NCBI GenBank assembly: GCA_027489895.1
Contig: JAIXZD010000413.1
Location: 1 to 64,000 of the forward strand
DNA: 64,000 nucleotides
Direction: 5' to 3'
Source of the DNA: Planctomycetaceae bacterium
GTDB lineage: Bacteria > Planctomycetota > Planctomycetia > Planctomycetales > Planctomycetaceae
In this document: one piece after another, positions 7,192 through 40,624 of the stretch
How positions within the stretch are numbered: position 1 is the stretch's first letter
How the letters are laid out: each line of letters opens with the position of its first letter
Translations under genes and position numbers: made by a program
The notes under the pieces: model-generated
Seen by the model: only the letters and a program-made list of their open reading frames with translations
Told to the model about the DNA's origin: nothing
Databases searched by the model: none

Positions 7192-7244
7192 GCGAGCCGA
7201 CCCTGTCAGCCAGGTAGGGTGGGCACTGCCCACCACCGCTCACC
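7192..7244 (+). repeat. REP-B truncated at a REP-A copy
   Basis: REP-B sequence runs from 7192 to CTGTCAG at 7210, which is the middle of its palindrome. It is then replaced by CCA and, at 7214, by GTAG plus the palindrome GGTGGGCACTGCCCACC and ACCGCTCACC (REP-A, to 7244). The missing right half of REP-B suggests a junction created by insertion or recombination of REP-A. Confidence 0.7.
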
Positions 7245-7305: not shown

Positions 7306-7512
7306 GTAGGGCAGGCTCCCGCCTGCCTTCCTGGAGTGTAGACTTCGTTCTGTTGTTGCCTGACTCGACTGGGCTCGATTCATTCTGGCCCCGGGGCTGG
7401 TCACAGGTAGTCCCCGTCAGAAGATGAACCCCTCGTCCCTCGATCCAAACGGAATGTGCCTAACGCCGTCACGCCACAACCACCCAGGAAGGCAGGCGGG
7501 AGCCTGCCCTAC
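7306..7512. repeat. REP-C element with perfect 29-bp inverted ends (207 bp)
   Basis: The left end (7306-7334) reads GTAG followed by GGCAGGCTCCCGCCTGCC and TTCCTGG. The right end (7484-7512) is its exact reverse complement. The interior (7335-7483) encodes nothing recognisable. Each arm is GTAG plus a palindrome, as in REP elements. It ends 35 bases before the methyltransferase start, so it forms part of that gene's upstream region. Confidence 0.85.
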
Positions 7513-11557: not shown

Positions 11558-12044
11558 CCAGTTTGGAACGCGACGGCGGCCCGAACGCGATTCGACGCGG
11601 TCCGTCGCAGTGTTGAAGTTCGCAGTCAGACGCGATGGGAACACAGGGCGTGCCATGCTTGCACCGTTTCGGGGCAAGCATGCCAACCGCCAGACAGCGC
11701 GGCAGTCACCCAGTCCGCCTGCTTCCTGGAACTCGCCGAAAAACGGGGGTGGCCCGACCACCTCGTGGTCGGGTCGCGCAGCGACAGGAAGCCACACCTT
11801 CCGCGACCAACCACCAAAAAACGCACCTGCGGCAGGAAAGCCGCGCGTGGCAACCGGTTCGCCAACAGAAATCAGACTCGCCATTACCTCGCACGCCGAA
11901 ATGACACGCTCGTGCCCAGCTTCCACTCGGCGATCGCCCGGCGACTTATTCTGCCCCGGTTGTTTCATCGCTAGCGGCGCGTTATCAAACAGCGTTTCCG
12001 ATTTCGCACTCACCGAATTCTCCAAGCACCCGGGAGCCTCGCCG
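11558..12044. other. Intergenic gap with REP-F and a 9-bp hairpin
   Basis: No gene is supported here. The gap holds REP-F (11650-11684) and a perfect 9-bp hairpin CCCGACCAC-ctc-GTGGTCGGG (11753-11773). It lies between divergent genes and should contain both promoters, but none is clear. Confidence 0.5.
11650..11684 (+). repeat. REP-F single copy
   Basis: GTGCCATGCTTGCACC then GTTTCGGGGCAAGCATGCC. The arms ATGCTTGC and GCAAGCAT pair around an 11-base loop. Other copies are at 43756, 43871 (inverted), 60932 and 62909. Confidence 0.8.
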
Positions 12045-12757: not shown

Positions 12758-13462
12758 GTGCGCCGATGCATGGGGTTTGTGCTCGCGGCGCTTTACGCCC
12801 CGGCGGTGCGAGGACAAGAACCTCCCGCACCAGCGAACGCCGAAGCAGGGAAACCTGATCCCCAGGCGTCCCAAGAGAGATCGTCCCGCCCCAAGCCCGC
12901 CAAATTCAATAAGGTGCTGAAGCTGGGTGATCCCGCCCCCAGTTTCCCCGCGCTCGCCGCGGTCGACGGACGCCGCTACGCCCTGACCGATTTCGACGAC
13001 GCACGCCTCCTCGTGCTGATTTTCACCTCTCAGAAGTGCCCGGTCTCCAAGGCCTACGAAGCGCGGTTCGCCGAACTGACCGCCGATTTCGCCGATCGTG
13101 GCCTGCGCGTCGTCGCGCTCTCCGTCGCCACCGCCGCGAACGAGCAGTTGGACAAGGTCCGCGAGCGATTCGAGAAAGATCCACGCCCATACGTCTATCT
13201 GCACGACCCGAGCCAGGCCGTGGGCCGAAGTTTCGGAGCGTATGTCACCCCGCAGGTGTTCGTTCTGGATTCAGAGCGAAAGGTCGCCTACATGGGCGCG
13301 TTCGACGATCACCACGACCGCCGCGAAGTCGTCAAGCATTATGTTGTGGACGCCGTGGACGCGCTCCTCGCCGGTCGCCCGGTCCTCGTCGGCGAGTCGC
13401 TCCCCAAGGGATGCGAAATCGAATACCGCGACGACCCCCGGCCCTCCCCGCCCCAACCGTAG
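12758..13462 (+). CDS. Secreted redoxin / thioredoxin-fold protein
   Basis: An exported thioredoxin-fold protein of the AhpC/TSA-redoxin type. LKLGDPAPSFPALAAVDG begins the fold, LIFTSQKCPVSKAYEARF carries the single peroxidatic-type Cys (CPVSK in place of CxxC), and YVTPQVFVLDSERKVAYMG holds the cis-proline. A further Cys lies in SLPKGCEIEY near the C-terminus. Planctomycetes have many such one-Cys proteins; the oxidant or partner is unknown. GTG 12758 gives a compact signal peptide (MRRCMGFVLAALYAPAVRG) and lies after the terminator hairpin. ATG 12692 and ATG 12770 are alternatives. The stop TAG is part of GTAG followed by the small palindrome CCGAGTCGG. Confidence 0.75.
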   Translation: MRRCMGFVLAALYAPAVRGQEPPAPANAEAGKPDPQASQERSSRPKPAKFNKVLKLGDPAPSFPALAAVDGRRYALTDFDDARLLVLIFTSQKCPVSKAYEARFAELTADFADRGLRVVALSVATAANEQLDKVRERFEKDPRPYVYLHDPSQAVGRSFGAYVTPQVFVLDSERKVAYMGAFDDHHDRREVVKHYVVDAVDALLAGRPVLVGESLPKGCEIEYRDDPRPSPPQP

Positions 13463-13473
13463 CCGAGTCGGCT

Positions 13474-13496
13474 GTAGCGGAACTCGTGAGAGTTCC
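13474..13496 (+). repeat. REP-D copy
   Basis: GTAG, then CGGAACTC-GTGA-GAGTTCC. The copies at 16350, 18914 and 18948 have different but still paired arms. It lies between the convergent redoxin and MMPL genes. Confidence 0.85.
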
Positions 13497-13531
13497 CCTC
13501 TTCGACCGCGTCTCCAAGCCTTCGCACCGCT

Positions 13532-16054
13532 CTACGGCACCAGCGTCGTCGCCGGCAGATCCCGCGGACTGGTCGGGTGCGAATGCCCCAGGTACTTGCC
13601 CAGGCTTCCGAAATGCCCGCCGTGCAGCAGCACAAGGTAGGCCGGGACGAGCAGAGGCCGCACCACAAACGTATCCAGCAGCACGCCGAAGCAGAGGGCG
13701 AAGCCGAGTTGTTTCATCCCGACCAGTTCGCCCCCCATGATCAGCGAGAAGAACGTTCCCGCCATGATGATCCCGCAACTGGAGATGATACTGCCCGTCT
13801 TTGTCACGGCGATGCGAATGCCCTCGATGGCGCCATGCAGTTCCTGCTCTTCTTCGATCCGCGTCATCAGGAAGATGTTGTAGTCCTCGCCGATCGCGAT
13901 CAGGATCGTGAACAGGAACATCGGCACCTTCCAGTCCAGCCCCGCGAAATCGGCTCCGTACCACCACCAGAACGCGACAAACGTCGCACCGAGTGTCACG
14001 AAGTAACTGAAGAAGACGCTCACAATCAGATAGGCCGAAACCGCCGGCTTCCGCAGCAGCGCCACAAGAATCAGAAACACCACGGCCAGGACGAGAATGT
14101 CGATCTTGATCTGGTCATGATCGGTCACCGTCTTCAGGTCGCGAATACTCGCCGTCGGACCCACGAGGTGAATCTCCGACTCTCCCTTGAGTGCCAGCGG
14201 CATGTCCCGTTTCAGAGTCTCGGTGACGGCATTCAACTGGGCGATGCACTCGCGTGAGAACGGGTCGTCGCGAAACACCAGGTCCAGCCGCGAAACGTGA
14301 CCGTCGTACTCCCCCTCGGCCGAGATGTAGTATTCATCCGCCTCGCGGCGGCGCTGGGCATCGACCACGCGCTCGCGGAATCCGCGTGCGGCCGCCTTGA
14401 CGCGGTCCGTGGGGTCCACCTCGGCGGTCGCCTGCCCCTCATGCAGAATGCCCGGCTGCGACCAGCCCAGCGGAAACCGCACGTACCGGACATCCGCCAG
14501 ACCCAATTCCTGACGGTTCGCTTTCAACTGGCTGGCCAGTTCATCGAGCGCCGCCCGGCCTTCCTCGCTCCGAAAATCAATCTGGTTGTTCCGCAGAATG
14601 ATCGTCACCGGACCGGCGGATCCCGCCGGAAAATGCGACTGGACCGCCTTGGCACCAATCACGCTCTGGTTCGAGGGCGACAGCTCGCTCAACAATCCGT
14701 AGCTGAGGTAGTCATGCCAGACCAGCCCCACCACCGCAAACGGCAGCATCGCGGCAATACAGACCACCAGCACCGTCCGCGGGCTGCTCACGACCATCTT
14801 GGCGATCGATTCCCACGCAATCTGGACCCGGTTGCGTTCGATCAGCCGATTGACAAGGCTCGTCCCGCTCAGCCACCCCGTTCCCGCCAGATGCTCGGAC
14901 CGACCATAGGGCCAGAACGCCCAGCGGCCCGTCATCCGCAACAGCGCCGGCGTCAACGTGATCGAGGCGATCGACACGACCACCAGCGACAGCGAGATAC
15001 CAATCCCTGCCTCGCGGAACTTTCCGAACTGGGCAAACACCAGCATCCCGATGCCGCCAATCACCGTCCCCGCACTGGCGATCAGGGCCGCTCCGACTTT
15101 CCCGAGTGTTTCGGGAATCGCCTGCTTGATCCGCAAACCCCGGTCCAGCTCTTCCTTGTACCGGGCAATCAGGAACAGGCAGTAATCCACGCCCGCCCCG
15201 TACACCACTACCGTGATGTACACCTCCATGCCCCAGAAAATCCGGAAGCCCCAGTTGGGAATCTGGGTCAGCAGGATCACCAGGCCCAGCGACACATTCA
15301 CCGCAAAAAACACGGTGATCAGCGGAATCAGCGCCAGTAGCGGCGCCCGGTAGATCGCCAGCAGAAGGATCACCACCAGCGCCGTCGTCCAGGCTTCGGT
15401 TCCGTGGGCCGACTGCTGGTTCGCCACCAGCATGTCGCGCCCAACCGTGGCCGTCCCGCTGATGGCCAGTTCCAGCCCAGGGGGCGTGATCGGTACCGCC
15501 GTCGCCGGATCGACTTCCTTCCGGACGTCGTTCAGGATCTTTTCGATCGCCTCGATCGTTGGCTTGTTTCCGAAATCGAGAAACTCCGACCGCAGCGCGA
15601 CAATCACCAGTGACGCTTTGCGATCCTCGCTGTCGAGCAGTTTGCCCATCAGGGGATCGCGCGACGTCTTCACCGAAACGATCAACTCGGGAGACGTTTC
15701 CTGCAGCGCCTCCAGTCGCGGCCTCAGCACGTCCTGAATAAACCGGTCGTCCTGTTCGACCAGCGGCTGCGTTTCCCGGCGAACCACAACCACCACGCTG
15801 CTGTTCAGCAGGTCGTGCGGGAACGACTTGGCCATCAGCCGTTCACCGACCAGGCTCGGCATCTCCTGCGGGAGATACGCGAATTCCCCATCCTCGATCA
15901 GGTCTTTGAACTTTGGAATGGGATAGCCCCATTCGGTGAACAGCCCGCGTGCGGTCCCAAACCCCCACACCATCGCGACGAGCCACACCACGAGGCAGAG
16001 CCTCCAATGGCGTTCGACCGTCGCTCCAAGCGATTCAAAAAAACGGGGGATCAT
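13532..16054 (-). CDS. MMPL/RND-family membrane transporter
   Basis: An 840-aa polytopic inner-membrane protein with two MMPL repeats. Each has one leading helix, a large periplasmic loop and a bundle of five helices. The first helix is RLCLVVWLVAMVWGFGTARG; a block at about residues 210-370 includes ITVVVYGAGVDYCLFLIARY, the conserved GxDY/F motif of helix 4. The second block (about 690-815) contains ILIAIGEDYNIFLMTRIEEE, its counterpart. Such pumps use the proton gradient to export lipids or hydrophobic molecules to the outer membrane; the HpnN hopanoid exporters belong here, but the cargo cannot be told. ATG 16054 begins MIPRFFESLG. It converges on the redoxin gene. Confidence 0.88.
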   Translation of the reverse strand: MIPRFFESLGATVERHWRLCLVVWLVAMVWGFGTARGLFTEWGYPIPKFKDLIEDGEFAYLPQEMPSLVGERLMAKSFPHDLLNSSVVVVVRRETQPLVEQDDRFIQDVLRPRLEALQETSPELIVSVKTSRDPLMGKLLDSEDRKASLVIVALRSEFLDFGNKPTIEAIEKILNDVRKEVDPATAVPITPPGLELAISGTATVGRDMLVANQQSAHGTEAWTTALVVILLLAIYRAPLLALIPLITVFFAVNVSLGLVILLTQIPNWGFRIFWGMEVYITVVVYGAGVDYCLFLIARYKEELDRGLRIKQAIPETLGKVGAALIASAGTVIGGIGMLVFAQFGKFREAGIGISLSLVVVSIASITLTPALLRMTGRWAFWPYGRSEHLAGTGWLSGTSLVNRLIERNRVQIAWESIAKMVVSSPRTVLVVCIAAMLPFAVVGLVWHDYLSYGLLSELSPSNQSVIGAKAVQSHFPAGSAGPVTIILRNNQIDFRSEEGRAALDELASQLKANRQELGLADVRYVRFPLGWSQPGILHEGQATAEVDPTDRVKAAARGFRERVVDAQRRREADEYYISAEGEYDGHVSRLDLVFRDDPFSRECIAQLNAVTETLKRDMPLALKGESEIHLVGPTASIRDLKTVTDHDQIKIDILVLAVVFLILVALLRKPAVSAYLIVSVFFSYFVTLGATFVAFWWWYGADFAGLDWKVPMFLFTILIAIGEDYNIFLMTRIEEEQELHGAIEGIRIAVTKTGSIISSCGIIMAGTFFSLIMGGELVGMKQLGFALCFGVLLDTFVVRPLLVPAYLVLLHGGHFGSLGKYLGHSHPTSPRDLPATTLVP

Positions 16055-16219
16055 GCGAGATCGCGTCTAGGGTGCCGCCCGGCCCGGAAGCACGGTCGGT
16101 CGAAAAGAGTGACCGAACCCCAGACGCTAACACGATTTGCGCGAAGCGTCAATCATCGGACACGAACCGTCTCAGCCCGGGGGCCGTCGCCGATTTTCAG
16201 GCAACTGTCGTAATCCGAA

Positions 16220-16243
16220 GAGCCGGAAGCGTCAGCGCCCGGA
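16220..16243 (+). repeat. REP-I copy
   Basis: GAGCCGGAAGCGTCAGCG then CCCGGA. A full inverted copy is at 50568-50591 and a degenerate one at 9016. Confidence 0.75.
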
Positions 16244-16349
16244 GGGCCCACGATCCCCGCTCGGCTTTCGCCCTACACCAGTGGGAACCAGCCCCTCCGT
16301 CCCCTCTGTCACCGATTTGGACACTCAATGTGCCATCCCAAGCGCGTCG

Positions 16350-16372
16350 GTAGCGGAACTCGTGAGAGTTCC
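16350..16372 (+). repeat. REP-D copy
   Basis: Identical over 23 bases to the copy at 13474: GTAG followed by CGGAACTC, GTGA and GAGTTCC. Confidence 0.85.
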
Positions 16373-16406
16373 ACGGCCCGCGCCTGGTCACAGCCCGCGC
16401 CTGTGC

Positions 16407-16459
16407 GTGCCAGTGCGAGCGGGAGCACGCAAACAAGGCACTGGCACAGCCAGTGGCAC
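16407..16459 (+). repeat. REP-H copy
   Basis: GTGCCAGTGCGAGCGGG at the left and GGCACAGCCAGTGGCAC at the right. Related copies are at 29495-29547 and 61169-61193 (the short form GTGCCACTGGCTTTGCCAGT). Confidence 0.7.
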
Positions 16460-16495
16460 TCAATCGATAAGGTCCCTTCGGTCTGAACCACTGCT

Positions 16496-18676
16496 CTAGC
16501 CGACCGTCGCCGGTTCCCGCAGCATCCGCGCCTGAGCCGCCGAGGTATCCAGCGACAGCCGAATCACGACCGACCAGAGTCCATCCGCACCCGCGCGAAC
16601 CGTCCACCGCGGCACAATGACGCTGCTCTGGTGGACGCCTTCGTAGCCCCCTTCCGACTGGCTGATCGTCTGAATCGGGAACGTCCAGATGCGGGCCGGT
16701 TCCGAGAAATCCAGACTCACATCCAGCCCCAGCCACTCGTCCACCAGGCCAATCCGGCCCGTATCCGGCAAATCCAATTCGCTCTGCAACTGCCCCAGCG
16801 CCCGCCCATCGGCGTCGTAATAGAACCGGTCCGCCGCGCCGGCGGCCAACCCCGCACAGTTGAACTCCACCGCGAACTCGATCGCCACACCCACCGGCAG
16901 GCCCGATAGCTCGTACAGAAACTCCAACTCCTGACTCGCCGCCGACCGGTCCACATTGACCGTCTTCCGCACAGTCAGTTCGTGCGGCCCCACTTTCCCG
17001 ACGCGGACCATCTCGACCTGGACATGCCCGTCCGCCCGCTTGAGCACAGTATCGTAGACACCGGTGACAAAATCCCCGATCTCGCCCTGCCCCGCCTGGA
17101 ATTGCTCGCGGGTCAGATCCGGGGCCAGAAAATGGTCGACCAGACTCTTCCGTGGGGTCAGATCGTACCCTAGACGCCGATGCAGGTCCGCCTGCTTGTA
17201 CCGCTGCCCATCGTGCTGAGCCGGAAGCCCGCCCTCACCAAAGTTCCGGGCGGCCGCCGCAATCTTCTCGTGATAAGGCTCCGGCCGACGGTTGAGCGTC
17301 GCCAGCAGATTGTGCCGGATCGACCGCAGATCGAGCTCATACAGATGCCCACCCCGAGCCGGGGCAAAGTAGGCCACCAGCCGGTCCGTCGCGAGTCGGA
17401 TCTCCTTCCGTGCATCGAGGTTGTAGTCCCCCGCCTCCACCTCGACCCACGAGCCGGTATGCCCCAGCGCCTGCTCGATCAGCGTGTCCGCCGCGATCAA
17501 ATGCCGATACACAGCGTTCCGCAAGTGCGGCAGATACAGCCCCCCAAACGAGCCATGCCAGTAGCTGCAGTTGCACTGGCCGCGATACAGCTCCATCCGC
17601 GCCCGCTCGAGCAGATCACCCCGCACCTCATCGGGCGAGTCATCTTCCGCGACCGCCAGCCGCTGGCTCACCTCGAGCATCCGCGCGTACATCTCGTTCG
17701 TTTCGGGATACTTCGTTTTGAAATTCCGCCAGTACCCGCCCCGCACAAACGGCTTGATCCGCGGCCACTGCGTATGCCCTGAGAGTTCTCCCGAGACCTG
17801 AAAGTACTCCCGCTGCCGATCCGTGGGCAGCGCCCACTCGGTCATCTCGCGATAACTCGCGTCGGGAATGTAGATCTTCCCGATCGGTGGCACCGAATCG
17901 ACGACCCGCGCCAGCGTCGTTGTCTCCAGCCAGTCGCGGTTGTGCCGCAGCGCCTCGAAGAACCGGTGAATCCAGCCATGCGTGTAGACGTGATGGTACG
18001 TGTCGGGCCAGCTCCCGAACTTCTCTCCATCATCACCAAACGCGACCACCGCGCCCGGGTGCCGGTCCGCAATCCACCGCAGATGGTTGATGCTGTCGTG
18101 CGGCTCCGAAAACGGAATCGTGTACCGCAGCCGCTCGCAGACCGGGAACACCTTCAGCAGCCGGCCTTCATCCTCGGTCAGGTAGTAACCGTTGAGGTCG
18201 TCTTCGCTCAGCCCCGCGTTCTTGAAATGGAAGTCGTCGAGAATCGTGTACTCGATCCCCGCTTCCACCAGATCGCTGGTGAATGACTGTTCCCACACCC
18301 GCTCGGGAACCCACATCCCCCGAATCCGCTGACCAAACAGCGACTCCAGGTACTCGGTGTACGCCCGGATCTGGCCGACCCGGTCCCGCCTGGGTATCGA
18401 GGCGAGGATCGGCTCGAAGAACGGCCCGCCGATGATTTCGACTTGCCCCCGCCCGACCAGCGCCCGCACCCGTTCGACGTACTCGGGCTTCTTGGCCACC
18501 AGCCACTCCATCAGGCTGCCCGACGTGTGCAGCACGACGGGAATGTCCGGATACCGCTCCAGCACTTCCAGAAACGGCAGATAACTCTCCCGATAGGCCG
18601 CTTCAAACACGCCATCAAAATTGCCAATCGGCTGATGATCGTGCAGGGTCAGAACCAGTCGAACACGGCCGGGCAT
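16496..18676 (-). CDS. Glycoside hydrolase family 57 alpha-glucanotransferase/amylase
   Basis: A 726-aa cytoplasmic enzyme of family GH57, which remodels or hydrolyses alpha-1,4-glucans such as glycogen. The (beta/alpha)7 barrel opens with VLTLHDHQPIGNFDGVFEAA. GMWVPERVWEQ (about residues 122-132) carries the catalytic nucleophile Glu, and VVAFGDDGEKFGSW (about 207-220) the acid/base Asp. The C-terminal half matches the helical DUF1925 and beta-rich DUF1926 domains seen in 4-alpha-glucanotransferases of this family. No secretion signal is present. ATG 18676 has AGGAC about nine bases upstream; a TTG eight codons further up is unlikely. The neighbours are not sugar genes. Whether it acts as a transferase or a hydrolase cannot be decided. 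Confidence 0.88.
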   Translation of the reverse strand: MPGRVRLVLTLHDHQPIGNFDGVFEAAYRESYLPFLEVLERYPDIPVVLHTSGSLMEWLVAKKPEYVERVRALVGRGQVEIIGGPFFEPILASIPRRDRVGQIRAYTEYLESLFGQRIRGMWVPERVWEQSFTSDLVEAGIEYTILDDFHFKNAGLSEDDLNGYYLTEDEGRLLKVFPVCERLRYTIPFSEPHDSINHLRWIADRHPGAVVAFGDDGEKFGSWPDTYHHVYTHGWIHRFFEALRHNRDWLETTTLARVVDSVPPIGKIYIPDASYREMTEWALPTDRQREYFQVSGELSGHTQWPRIKPFVRGGYWRNFKTKYPETNEMYARMLEVSQRLAVAEDDSPDEVRGDLLERARMELYRGQCNCSYWHGSFGGLYLPHLRNAVYRHLIAADTLIEQALGHTGSWVEVEAGDYNLDARKEIRLATDRLVAYFAPARGGHLYELDLRSIRHNLLATLNRRPEPYHEKIAAAARNFGEGGLPAQHDGQRYKQADLHRRLGYDLTPRKSLVDHFLAPDLTREQFQAGQGEIGDFVTGVYDTVLKRADGHVQVEMVRVGKVGPHELTVRKTVNVDRSAASQELEFLYELSGLPVGVAIEFAVEFNCAGLAAGAADRFYYDADGRALGQLQSELDLPDTGRIGLVDEWLGLDVSLDFSEPARIWTFPIQTISQSEGGYEGVHQSSVIVPRWTVRAGADGLWSVVIRLSLDTSAAQARMLREPATVG

Positions 18677-18913
18677 GGAGTACGTCCTGAAGGCTCGCAA
18701 CTATCAGACAACGAGTTGAACCGGCAATTTGCGGCCCAACACGCACCCTGAAGTCACGCAGCGATACACATCGAGAGCGGAGCGGCCCGCAATAATCCCG
18801 ACTTCCCGGCATTCCGACAAGCGGGCTTTCGGTTCCCTCGCCACCGAATCCCAAGGCCTCCCCGTTTCCCAGGCACACGCGTCAAGGTTTCACCCCTGCC
18901 AACACCCCTGCCG

Positions 18914-18970
18914 GTAGCGGAACGCGTGAGCGTTCCCACCCAACCTCGTAGCGGAAGCCGTGAGGCTTCC
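18914..18970 (+). repeat. Two tandem REP-D copies with compensated stems
   Basis: The first (18914-18936) is GTAG plus CGGAACGC-GTGA-GCGTTCC. The second (18948-18970) is GTAG plus CGGAAGCC-GTGA-GGCTTCC. Compared with the GGAACTC/GAGTTCC copies, both arms change together, so pairing is kept. Confidence 0.85.
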
Positions 18971-18989
18971 CAACCTGCCCTGCGACACC

Positions 18990-19026
18990 AACGAAAACAC
19001 CCCGGCCAGATCACTGGCCGGGGTGT
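18990..19026 (-). terminator. Intrinsic terminator of rplM-rpsI
   Basis: A perfect 13-bp stem, ACACCCCGGCCAG with CTGGCCGGGGTGT around a four-base loop (18997-19026), is followed on the minus strand by TTTTCGTTGG. It lies 48 bases past the rpsI stop. Confidence 0.85.
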
Positions 19027-19073
19027 GGAAATCTTCAAGTCAGCAGGCAAAACGCCACTCAAACCCAATCAGA

Positions 19074-19667
19074 CTAACGCTTCGAGAACTGGAAGCTGCG
19101 GCGGGCTTTCTTGTGACCGTACTTCTTACGTTCAACCATGCGGTCGTCACGCGTCAGGAACGAATGCTCGGCGAGAATCGGGTGCAGTTCGGCCCGCATC
19201 GCATGCAACGCACGCGCCAGACCCAGCACGATCGCCCCGGCCTGACCAGCCAGCCCACCGCCATTGGCCCGCACCCACACGTCCACGTCGCCACGGACGC
19301 CACACAACTTCAGCGGCGCTTCGACTTCCAGGCGGTAGCGTTCCACCGGGAAGTACTCCGCGAACTCGCGATCATTGATCGTGATCTTGCCTGTACCCTT
19401 CTTGACCCGCACGCGGGCCACGCTCGTCTTGCGACGACCCGTCGCCACGACCGTGCCATCCGGAAGCGTTCGCCCGCGCACCACATGTTGCACCGCGACC
19501 GCGACCGGAGCGTCAGCCGACGACTGCGAGCCGATGTCCAGCGAAGGAACAACCGAGCCGGTCGAACTGTCCGTCGGAGCCACAGCAGCCATCTCAGGGA
19601 CAGCAACTTCGGGAGCAGCCGCTTCAGGGGCGGTCACGTCAGTTTCGGGAAGCACTTCGTCAGCCAT
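19074..19667 (-). CDS. rpsI: 30S ribosomal protein S9 with acidic N-terminal extension
   Basis: Small-subunit ribosomal protein whose C-terminal tail reaches the P-site tRNA. The conserved core begins near residue 76 (ATGRRKTSVARVRVKKGTG), continues through ANGGGLAGQAGAIVLGLARAL and ends in the invariant KKARRSFQFSKR. The first ~75 residues (MADEVLPETDVTAPEAAAPE and following, rich in Ala, Pro, Glu and Ser) are not part of bacterial S9, which is about 130 aa. The frame and ATG 19667 are clear and no later Met fits the core start, so the extension is probably real. It is downstream of rplM in the usual order, and the pair is closed by a strong terminator. Confidence 0.95.
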   Translation of the reverse strand: MADEVLPETDVTAPEAAAPEVAVPEMAAVAPTDSSTGSVVPSLDIGSQSSADAPVAVAVQHVVRGRTLPDGTVVATGRRKTSVARVRVKKGTGKITINDREFAEYFPVERYRLEVEAPLKLCGVRGDVDVWVRANGGGLAGQAGAIVLGLARALHAMRAELHPILAEHSFLTRDDRMVERKKYGHKKARRSFQFSKR

Positions 19668-40449: not shown

Positions 40450-40624
40450 GGTGGGCACTGCCCACCAGCGCTCACCGGCCCCCATCCACGGACCCGCTCC
40501 TCGATCGCTCTCCAGCACTGGCCACATCGCGCCTGCCCAAAGTCGTTACGAGACCGGAGGAGCAGGGGGTGAGCGATCTGGTGTTTGTAGACGGGTGAGC
40601 ATTGGTGGGCAGTGCCCACCCTAC
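40446..40624. repeat. REP-A inverted pair (179 bp)
   Basis: The 31-bp left end (40446-40476) is GTAG, GGTGGGCACTGCCCACC and AGCGCTCACC. The right end (40594-40624) is its reverse complement with two differences. The interior is not coding. Another 179-bp pair with different interior sequence is at 42332. The left GTAG holds the stop codon of the isochorismatase gene. Confidence 0.9.

Follow-up and report, generated by a model that had tools for sequence, protein, structure and literature searches.

Stem covariation in REP-D, a GTAG-type repetitive extragenic palindrome of a Planctomycetaceae bacterium

Introduction

REP-associated tyrosine transposases (RAYTs) are HUH-tyrosine single-strand endonucleases named after the repetitive extragenic palindromes (REPs). 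We describe here a REP family, REP-D, four copies of which lie in a 64,000-nucleotide stretch of DNA from a Planctomycetaceae bacterium (assembly GCA_027489895.1, contig JAIXZD010000413.1, positions 1 to 64,000 of the forward strand; hereafter the window), and the way in which the two arms of its stem change together.

Di Nocera et al. (2013; PMC3733652) describe most GTAG REP families as falling into sub-families whose alternative stem residues are complementary, with GT pairs frequent in the stems and, in most families, a preference for dimers of unlike units that had no obvious explanation. REP-D resembles the families described there in its GTAG head, short loop and high copy number; most of those families have stems of 6–9 bp, and Planctomycetes are among their hosts. 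The families are given as IUPAC consensus sequences, and in the portions of that paper used here we met no covariation test, no test on a RAYT tree and no comparison of G·T with A·C pairs. Pirellula, Blastopirellula and Gimesia are absent from its main text, and REP-D is compared with its families by description only.

For the group 3 TnpA-REP systems of Stenotrophomonas and Marinomonas, Corneloup et al. (2021; PMC8266576) report that a stem mismatch seriously lowered cleavage, that the effect was moderate when the complement replaced the entire Marinomonas stem, and that loop bases mattered. Group 3 REPs are perfect palindromes like those of REP-D, and their cleavage behaviour, as given in the sections of that paper drawn on here, is what would be expected from REP-D covariation. 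These systems belong, however, to another phylum and have a different loop, while the REP-D RAYT is divergent and known here from sequence and model. Escherichia coli TnpA-REP (PDB entry 4er8) is like the REP-D RAYT in being its best fold match, in its HUH and tyrosine motifs and in the REPs that flank its gene, but the two proteins are 18–20% identical in structural alignments, and E. coli REPs are described as needing a bulge for activity (PMC8266576), whereas the stems of the REP-D clade are mostly perfect.

Two further systems bear on the present case. In the 'orthoswitch' of Pseudomonas and Stenotrophomonas (Nunvar et al. 2013; PMC3686654), on whose mechanism its authors, in the passages used here, only speculated, RAYT orthologues are flanked by REPs with changed stems, as they are here; unlike in that account, the change is here traced on a RAYT tree that spans a class, and at each of its tips the chosen REP is paired. 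Bertels and Rainey (2011; PMC3116915) report compensatory changes in the spacers of REPINs of P. fluorescens. Inverted REP doublets are common to both cases, but the P. fluorescens doublet is presented in that source as one long hairpin, whereas the partners in the REP-D clade often differ and each keeps its own stem.

Among the titles and opening lines of abstracts in the open-licence literature, we recognised no covariation test on REPs. Stem covariation among REPs is nevertheless already known in kind, and REP-D is a well-documented new case of a known type of mobile repeat. The covariation of its stems is real, and it probably reflects selection on the single GTAG-strand REP hairpin during putative RAYT-driven multiplication.

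Results and discussion

REP-D in the window and in the genome

The REP-D element is 23 bases long and has the form GTAG C GGAA-NNN GTGA NNN-TTCC. All four window copies are on the plus strand, in gaps between open reading frames (ORFs) that were called mechanically:

13474-13496, plus strand: REP-D copy, stem GGAACTC/GAGTTCC, between a plus-strand ORF ending at 13462 and a minus-strand ORF ending at 13532; its parts are GTAG 13474-13477, C 13478, 5' arm 13479-13485, GTGA 13486-13489 and 3' arm 13490-13496
16350-16372, plus strand: REP-D copy, stem GGAACTC/GAGTTCC, between minus-strand ORFs 13532-16054 and 16496-18700
18914-18936, plus strand: REP-D copy, stem GGAACGC/GCGTTCC, first in a head-to-tail pair 11 bases apart
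18948-18970, plus strand: REP-D copy, stem GGAAGCC/GGCTTCC, second in the head-to-tail pair, near the 3' end of minus-strand ORF 19074-19667

The head-to-tail pair occupies the gap between minus-strand ORFs 16496-18700 and 19074-19667. An earlier note on this DNA had pointed to these four copies and their arms, to a constant GTGA loop and GTAG head, and to arms that change together. The arms are exact in the sequence and paired throughout; loop and head, the latter followed by C, are invariant across the four; and the three stem types differ at two of the seven base pairs, which takes at least two paired switches. Taken alone, the four copies are suggestive of covariation, short of proof. Their number is far above chance, since dinucleotide shuffling gives an expectation of 0.01 matches in the window and none of 100 shuffles reached four. 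Folded alone as single-stranded DNA, each of the three stem types gives the same seven-pair hairpin, at -6.2 kcal/mol for GGAACTC (the copy at 13474, folding as drawn, z -4.4), -8.0 kcal/mol for GGAACGC (18914) and -7.5 kcal/mol for GGAAGCC (18948).

The genome comprises 5.93 Mb in 575 contigs and holds 484 matches to the pattern of the earlier note, or 508 with the inner triplet left free; the pattern read backwards gave 0 both times. Covariation was followed in a sample of 102 stretches (the window, the stretch L012 and 100 others) that covers 1.13 of the 5.93 Mb, many of them picked for showing REP-D copies in genome-wide pattern listings. With up to three mismatches allowed outside the inner triplets, this sample holds 194 REP-D copies, against 1 for the reversed consensus. 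The head is conserved in nearly all of them (G1 in 192, T2 in 192, A3 in 185 with G in 3, and G4 in 193). REP-D thus bears the mark of GTAG-type REPs, a GT[A/G]G head before a palindrome with one mostly unpaired C between them. By a home-made gene model based on codon usage, 11 of the 194 copies lie inside genes and REP-D is mostly intergenic, 17 copies at contig edges being unclassed. The four window hairpins are copies of a GTAG-type REP.

Covariation within the genome

Since the scan placed no constraint on the inner triplets, the search does not condition their pairing. Covariation was assessed by the G statistic with average-product correction (APC), by permutations, by slid controls, and by simulation on a RAYT tree. 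The inner triplet is fully paired in 182 of the 194 copies, against a mean of 41.6 and a maximum of 63 when the 3' triplets were shuffled 10,000 times. A covariation test of the kind that the earlier note had proposed is thus significant on the 194 sampled copies, and the note's claim that the arms change together is borne out. In a test of all column pairs in the element plus its flanks (193 copies), the highest APC-corrected values belong to the inner stem pairs 11-18, 10-19 and 12-17 (279, 228 and 165; 60 column permutations gave no value above 26). When the copies are reduced to 62 distinct ones, the covariation score is 0.407, against 0.109 in shuffled sets (none of 500 reaching it) and at most 0.099 in slid controls.

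The paired triplets are of 13 types, eight of them in more than one copy (GCC 71, CTC 34, CGC 26, GCG 23, GTC 12, GCT 5, ATC 3, AGC 3) and dispersed over 3–49 stretches each, and five in a single copy (AAC, CTG, TTC, GGC and CCC). Unpaired triplets are of 12 types, each in one copy, so that multi-copy types make up 8 of 13 paired against 0 of 12 unpaired types (Fisher p=0.0016). These counts bear on the idea that a few masters, paired by chance, were multiplied and that pairing was never required. Such a founder effect would suit the fact that four types account for 154 of the 194 copies, and the correlation of columns that do not pair: four non-stem pairs within the same six columns also rise above the null (99 to 103, null maximum 26), as would be expected if the stem types share descent, and the copies are therefore not independent. 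On the other hand, 13 paired types would imply at least 12 changes of type within this one genome, and it is only paired types that have become multi-copy. With the evidence from RAYT lineages given below, a founder effect as the whole explanation appears extremely improbable.

The outer four pairs, GGAA/TTCC, behave differently. They are 96–99% identical, and only 1 of 23 departures is in a compensated copy, so that within this genome covariation is confined to the inner three pairs. The statement of the earlier note that the folded form is selected accordingly holds for the inner three pairs, while the outer four are fixed in sequence within this genome.

Compensated changes would also be expected if one arm were copied from the other at replication or repair (quasi-palindrome correction), with no selection on folding at all, and the five single-copy paired types are more than expected from two independent point mutations. 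Arm copying should, however, affect all palindromes and all stem pairs alike, and the outer pairs of REP-D do not show it. Nor does a second REP family of the same genome, GTAGGGTGGGCANTGCCCACC, with 0 compensated and 27 other departures over 7 pairs in 132 rows (most elements being counted on both strands). Taken together, the lack of arm matching in the outer pairs and in GTAGGGTGGGCANTGCCCACC means that palindromes of this genome do not share a general mutational tendency to match their arms. The contrast is less than complete, since the smaller family GTGGCCCGACCAC has 3 compensated rows, at 2 of its 9 pairs, among 21 rows. Templating of one arm on the other would, moreover, not leave the multi-copy G·T stems described below, and arm copying without selection seems to us quite unlikely.

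The cognate RAYT

Six places in the genome match the Y1 transposase profile PF01797, and the profile NF047646 added a divergent gene on contig C304 together with a stop-riddled remnant on contig C78. The divergent gene is the cognate RAYT of REP-D:

L131:13769-14359, minus strand: cognate RAYT gene, on contig C304, outside the window

Five REP-D copies surround it, on both sides, at 13675(-), 13688(+), 14420(+), 14592(-) and 14603(+) of L131; that at 14420 is of type GCC and the other four are of type GCG. Among 25 members of the clade to which this protein belongs, all match NF047646 at E<=0.01 and 21 match PF01797 at E<=0.1 (best 1.1e-6), and the HUH motif PDHxH (H73, H75) and Y134 are invariant; by analogy, these residues would be catalytic in the cognate RAYT. 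Searches of PDB sequences with this protein gave no relevant match, and a fold search gave one. An AlphaFold2 model (pLDDT 88.9) has as its best PDB match 4er8, the E. coli TnpA-REP with its REP hairpin (Z 14.0 over 147 residues, root-mean-square deviation 2.7), followed by the chain of the IS608 transposase (Z 9.8). The cognate RAYT is thus predicted to have the Y1 HUH fold of TnpA-REP. Quentin et al. (PMC6006769) classify these proteins; none of the rows of signatures consulted there agrees with the motifs of the REP-D RAYT (PDHxH, YIARNP, no WQ).

The gene lies in L131:12805-15392 between two ORFs. That at 12805-13635 is presumably a response regulator and that at 14679-15392 presumably MobA.

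Covariation between RAYT lineages

Homologues of the cognate RAYT are 38–63% identical to it over the matched part. With the window's own genome counted, the clade occurs in 11 of 170 genomes of the order, 28 of 397 of the class and 2 of 392 in a draw from the phylum, up to 8 candidates per genome being scored in the class and phylum draws; both phylum-draw genomes with the clade are of the window's own family. Of 36 places with such a homologue, 33 were analysed as loci, and at 32 of these 33 loci there are GTAG hairpins of REP-D build (190 found, 186 kept, about 2 expected in shuffled loci). REPs stand on both sides at 31 loci, L257 having none and L240 having them on one side only. Stems vary across the clade, with CTGAACTC, CCGCGTTC, CCACCGTC, TGGATCTT and others, each accompanied by the matching 3' arm.

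When one REP is taken per locus (30 of the 33 loci, 26 distinct), all 8 pairs show double changes, pairing extends to 97.1% of cells and the covariation score reaches 0.858, against 0.230 in shuffled sets and at most 0.171 in slid controls. On a tree built from RAYT proteins alone, with the commonest REP of each locus placed at the tips, the seven pairs require 9, 4, 9, 7, 12, 4 and 3 changes of pair state (about 48), and all seven are paired at 32 of 32 tips, G·T being counted as paired. Simulations with independent columns at matched rates reached this result 0, 1, 0, 0, 0, 0 and 5 times out of 280–1513. So many changes of pair state, with the chosen REP paired at every tip, also speak against the founder effect considered above.

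Single REP or doublet

The commonest arrangement of close neighbours at RAYT loci is tail-to-tail (59 of 117), and 16 of 37 close neighbours in the own-genome sample are arranged likewise, which raises the question of whether the folded unit is instead the long hairpin between two inverted REPs. This would agree with the published REPIN model, as set out in the parts of PMC3116915 used here, and with 6 of 26 loci at which only like partners are found. Yet the partners have unlike stems in 43 of the 59 tail-to-tail pairs, at least once at 20 of the 26 loci, and pairing holds at 816 of 826 positions within single REPs, against 719 of 826 between doublet partners in the long hairpin. This excess of pairing within REPs makes the single hairpin the maintained unit, and we regard the long hairpin as very unlikely to be the selected one.

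Unlike partners prevail at RAYT loci of other genomes, although a pair that recurs inside one locus does not count as a separate event. A corresponding excess of heterodimers in the window's own genome was considered and rejected: 5 of 17 tail-to-tail pairs there are alike, against 3.7 expected, which is about the random rate. Other close pairs in this genome are alike in 12 of 22 cases against 4.8 expected, that is, they are tandem copies.

DNA strand or RNA

A G·T pair on the GTAG strand is an A·C pair on the opposite strand, and the two strands can thereby be told apart. Counted over seven pairs and with four chance-like rows removed, the stem types in two or more copies (RAYT loci and own genome together) include 17 with G·T and 1 with A·C on the GTAG strand, besides two with T·T; the single-copy types include 16 with G·T and 14 with A·C (Fisher p=0.0034 against the multi-copy types, on types). 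Single-copy stems of the own genome have G·T 6 times and A·C 11 times. This suggests that multiplied stems have been selected on the GTAG strand and that single copies decay freely.

The alternative is that the hairpin is kept for a role in RNA, such as protection or termination at mRNA 3' ends, the copies being selected in place. We take the GTGA loop closed by C-G to be of the GNRA tetraloop type, which would fit such a role. REP-D copies are, besides, intergenic and most closely packed in convergent gaps (79 in about 41 kb; codirectional gaps have 74 in 111 kb and divergent gaps 13 in 55 kb), and overall they favour the sense orientation by 100:53 (p=0.0002) with the codon-usage model or 89:42 with crude ORFs. 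The portions of PMC3733652 used here also suggest that many REPs act in RNA.

Most of these points weaken on closer inspection. Tail-to-tail doublets in convergent gaps give sense orientation by geometry, and this accounts for the overall bias, which was accordingly rejected as evidence for RNA; where the neighbouring genes are codirectional, orientation is not significantly biased to sense (42:32, p=0.3), and another REP family is alike in this (19 of 19 sense in convergent gaps, 9:11 in codirectional ones). Of the 186 loops at RAYT loci, 112 have the sequence GCCA, GTTA or GCTA, which fits GNNA and not GNRA. The hypothesis of a maintained GNRA loop was tried on the own genome and dropped: 14 of 22 loop variants there are GNRA, but 10 of these are GTAA, and without GTAA the count is 4 of 12, about what single changes would give by chance. 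The G·T and A·C counts of single-copy own-genome stems give no sign of upkeep in place. Rfam gave 0 matches at gathering score in window positions 13000-19500, and the hairpin is not followed by the T run of an intrinsic terminator, the 3' flank being C-rich with T in at most 44 of 194 copies at any of 20 positions. An RNA role as the cause of the covariation is therefore unlikely in our judgement. The earlier note had left the place of selection between DNA during transposition and RNA; the evidence favours single-stranded DNA at the transposition step, with a secondary RNA effect possible, and so narrows that choice without closing it.

Other RAYTs and repeats of the genome

A second RAYT on the contig of the cognate gene (L131:3783-4431, 187 bits to NF047646) is flanked by a third REP, GTAGGGCAGGCTCCCGCCTGCC, which has window copies at 7306(+) and 7512(-). 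The RAYT at L012:1370-2061, on contig C80, has CACTGCTGG...CCAGCAGTG palindromes on both sides, and a truncated copy of its 5' end, 92% identical, lies at L152:12826-13011 (contig C187). The different REP flanking each of the three RAYTs is in line with one REP type per RAYT. The L012 RAYT was considered as the cognate of REP-D, a copy of which lies 198 bases upstream, and was rejected on the ground that its immediate flanks on both sides are CACTGCTGG...CCAGCAGTG. Among 57 loci of L012 RAYT relatives and its own locus (L035-L091), no REP-D (up to 4 mismatches, paired stem) was found outside the own locus. A set of 58 RAYT-like loci (L172-L229), most of which belong to other genomes with REP-D, gave no clear REP-D and three weak matches. 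The transposase genes on contigs C278, C280 (cut by the contig end), C525 and C335 have none of five tested REP families directly adjoining, the nearest element, a REP-Y, being about 570 bases off.

In the window, the second GTAG family GTAGGGTGGGCANTGCCCACC is present at 7214, 34983, 40446, 42332, 49715, 53390 and 56783 on the plus strand and at 40624, 42510 and 49874 on the minus strand. A palindrome GTGGCCCGACCAC-NNN-GTGGTCGGG lies at 11749-11777 and has 21 rows in the sample, both strands counted. The repeat GGAGCCGGAAGCGTNAGCGCCCGGAG, at 16219(+) and 50592(-) and with 88 rows in the sample, has the head GGAG, not GTAG; its stem carries an AA/GC mismatch, resembling the E. coli REP bulge as described in the part of PMC8266576 used here.

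Proposed mechanism and significance

The account that we propose for selection on the GTAG-strand hairpin is the following. A single REP whose GTAG strand lies exposed as single-stranded DNA and has folded would be bound on that strand by the RAYT, which would cut and rejoin it so that the REP is multiplied. Copies with a broken stem would be multiplied rarely or never, and a new stem would spread as soon as its two arms are complementary. Within one genome, the cognate RAYT probably recognises the lower stem (GGAA/TTCC) by its sequence and the three pairs above it chiefly by their shape; from one RAYT lineage to another, the stem would be exchanged as a whole, in paired form.

A number of observations sit less comfortably with this account. 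Among the 62 distinct copies, two of the five measures are not beyond shuffling, the count of pairs with double changes being matched by 119 of 500 shuffles and that of further pair types by 38 of 500; between loci, the 18 further pair types were matched by 61 of 500. The REPs at RAYT loci were picked for at least 6 of 7 pairs, so that the paired percentage is partly built in, although the variety of pair types is not. Counted by hand, the 17 G·T types come down to about seven lineages against one for A·C (two-sided sign test about 0.07, not significant alone), so that this excess is a pointer only. Some multi-copy stems are non-standard (T·T in 5 copies at L246 and 2 at L253, A·C in 2 at L251), which means that broken stems are not strictly barred. 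The family GTAGGGTGGGCANTGCCCACC is a REP of the same genome without compensated stem change, and covariation is thus no necessary sign of a REP. The cognate RAYT falls far below the NF047646 equivalog cut-off (34.1 against 80 bits) and the gathering cut-off of Pfam PF01797, Y1_Tnp (13.8 against 23 bits), and in two genomes with REP-D copies, G008 (20 copies) and G049 (10 copies), this RAYT has no match at E<=1e-15.

It is tempting to combine these strands in one tentative scheme, which we hold to be doubtful but worth stating. In this RAYT clade, the address that the RAYT reads might consist of the GTAG head and the GNNA loop together with, inside any one genome, the lower stem, the remaining stem being recognised by shape only and drifting in paired steps. 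The two REPs of a doublet would tend to differ in stem and might serve as separate left and right ends, kept from pairing with one another, and RAYT processing may itself copy arm from arm, which would explain the 'orthoswitch' of REP classes.

What four copies had suggested has thus been tested on 194 copies from a single genome and on 32 RAYT loci with REPs that are spread over a class. The case is ordinary in kind and unusually clean in evidence. The selected unit that it favours is the single GTAG-strand REP hairpin, over an RNA or the long doublet hairpin, and a named RAYT, together with a natural panel of paired and unpaired stems, makes the model directly testable in vitro.

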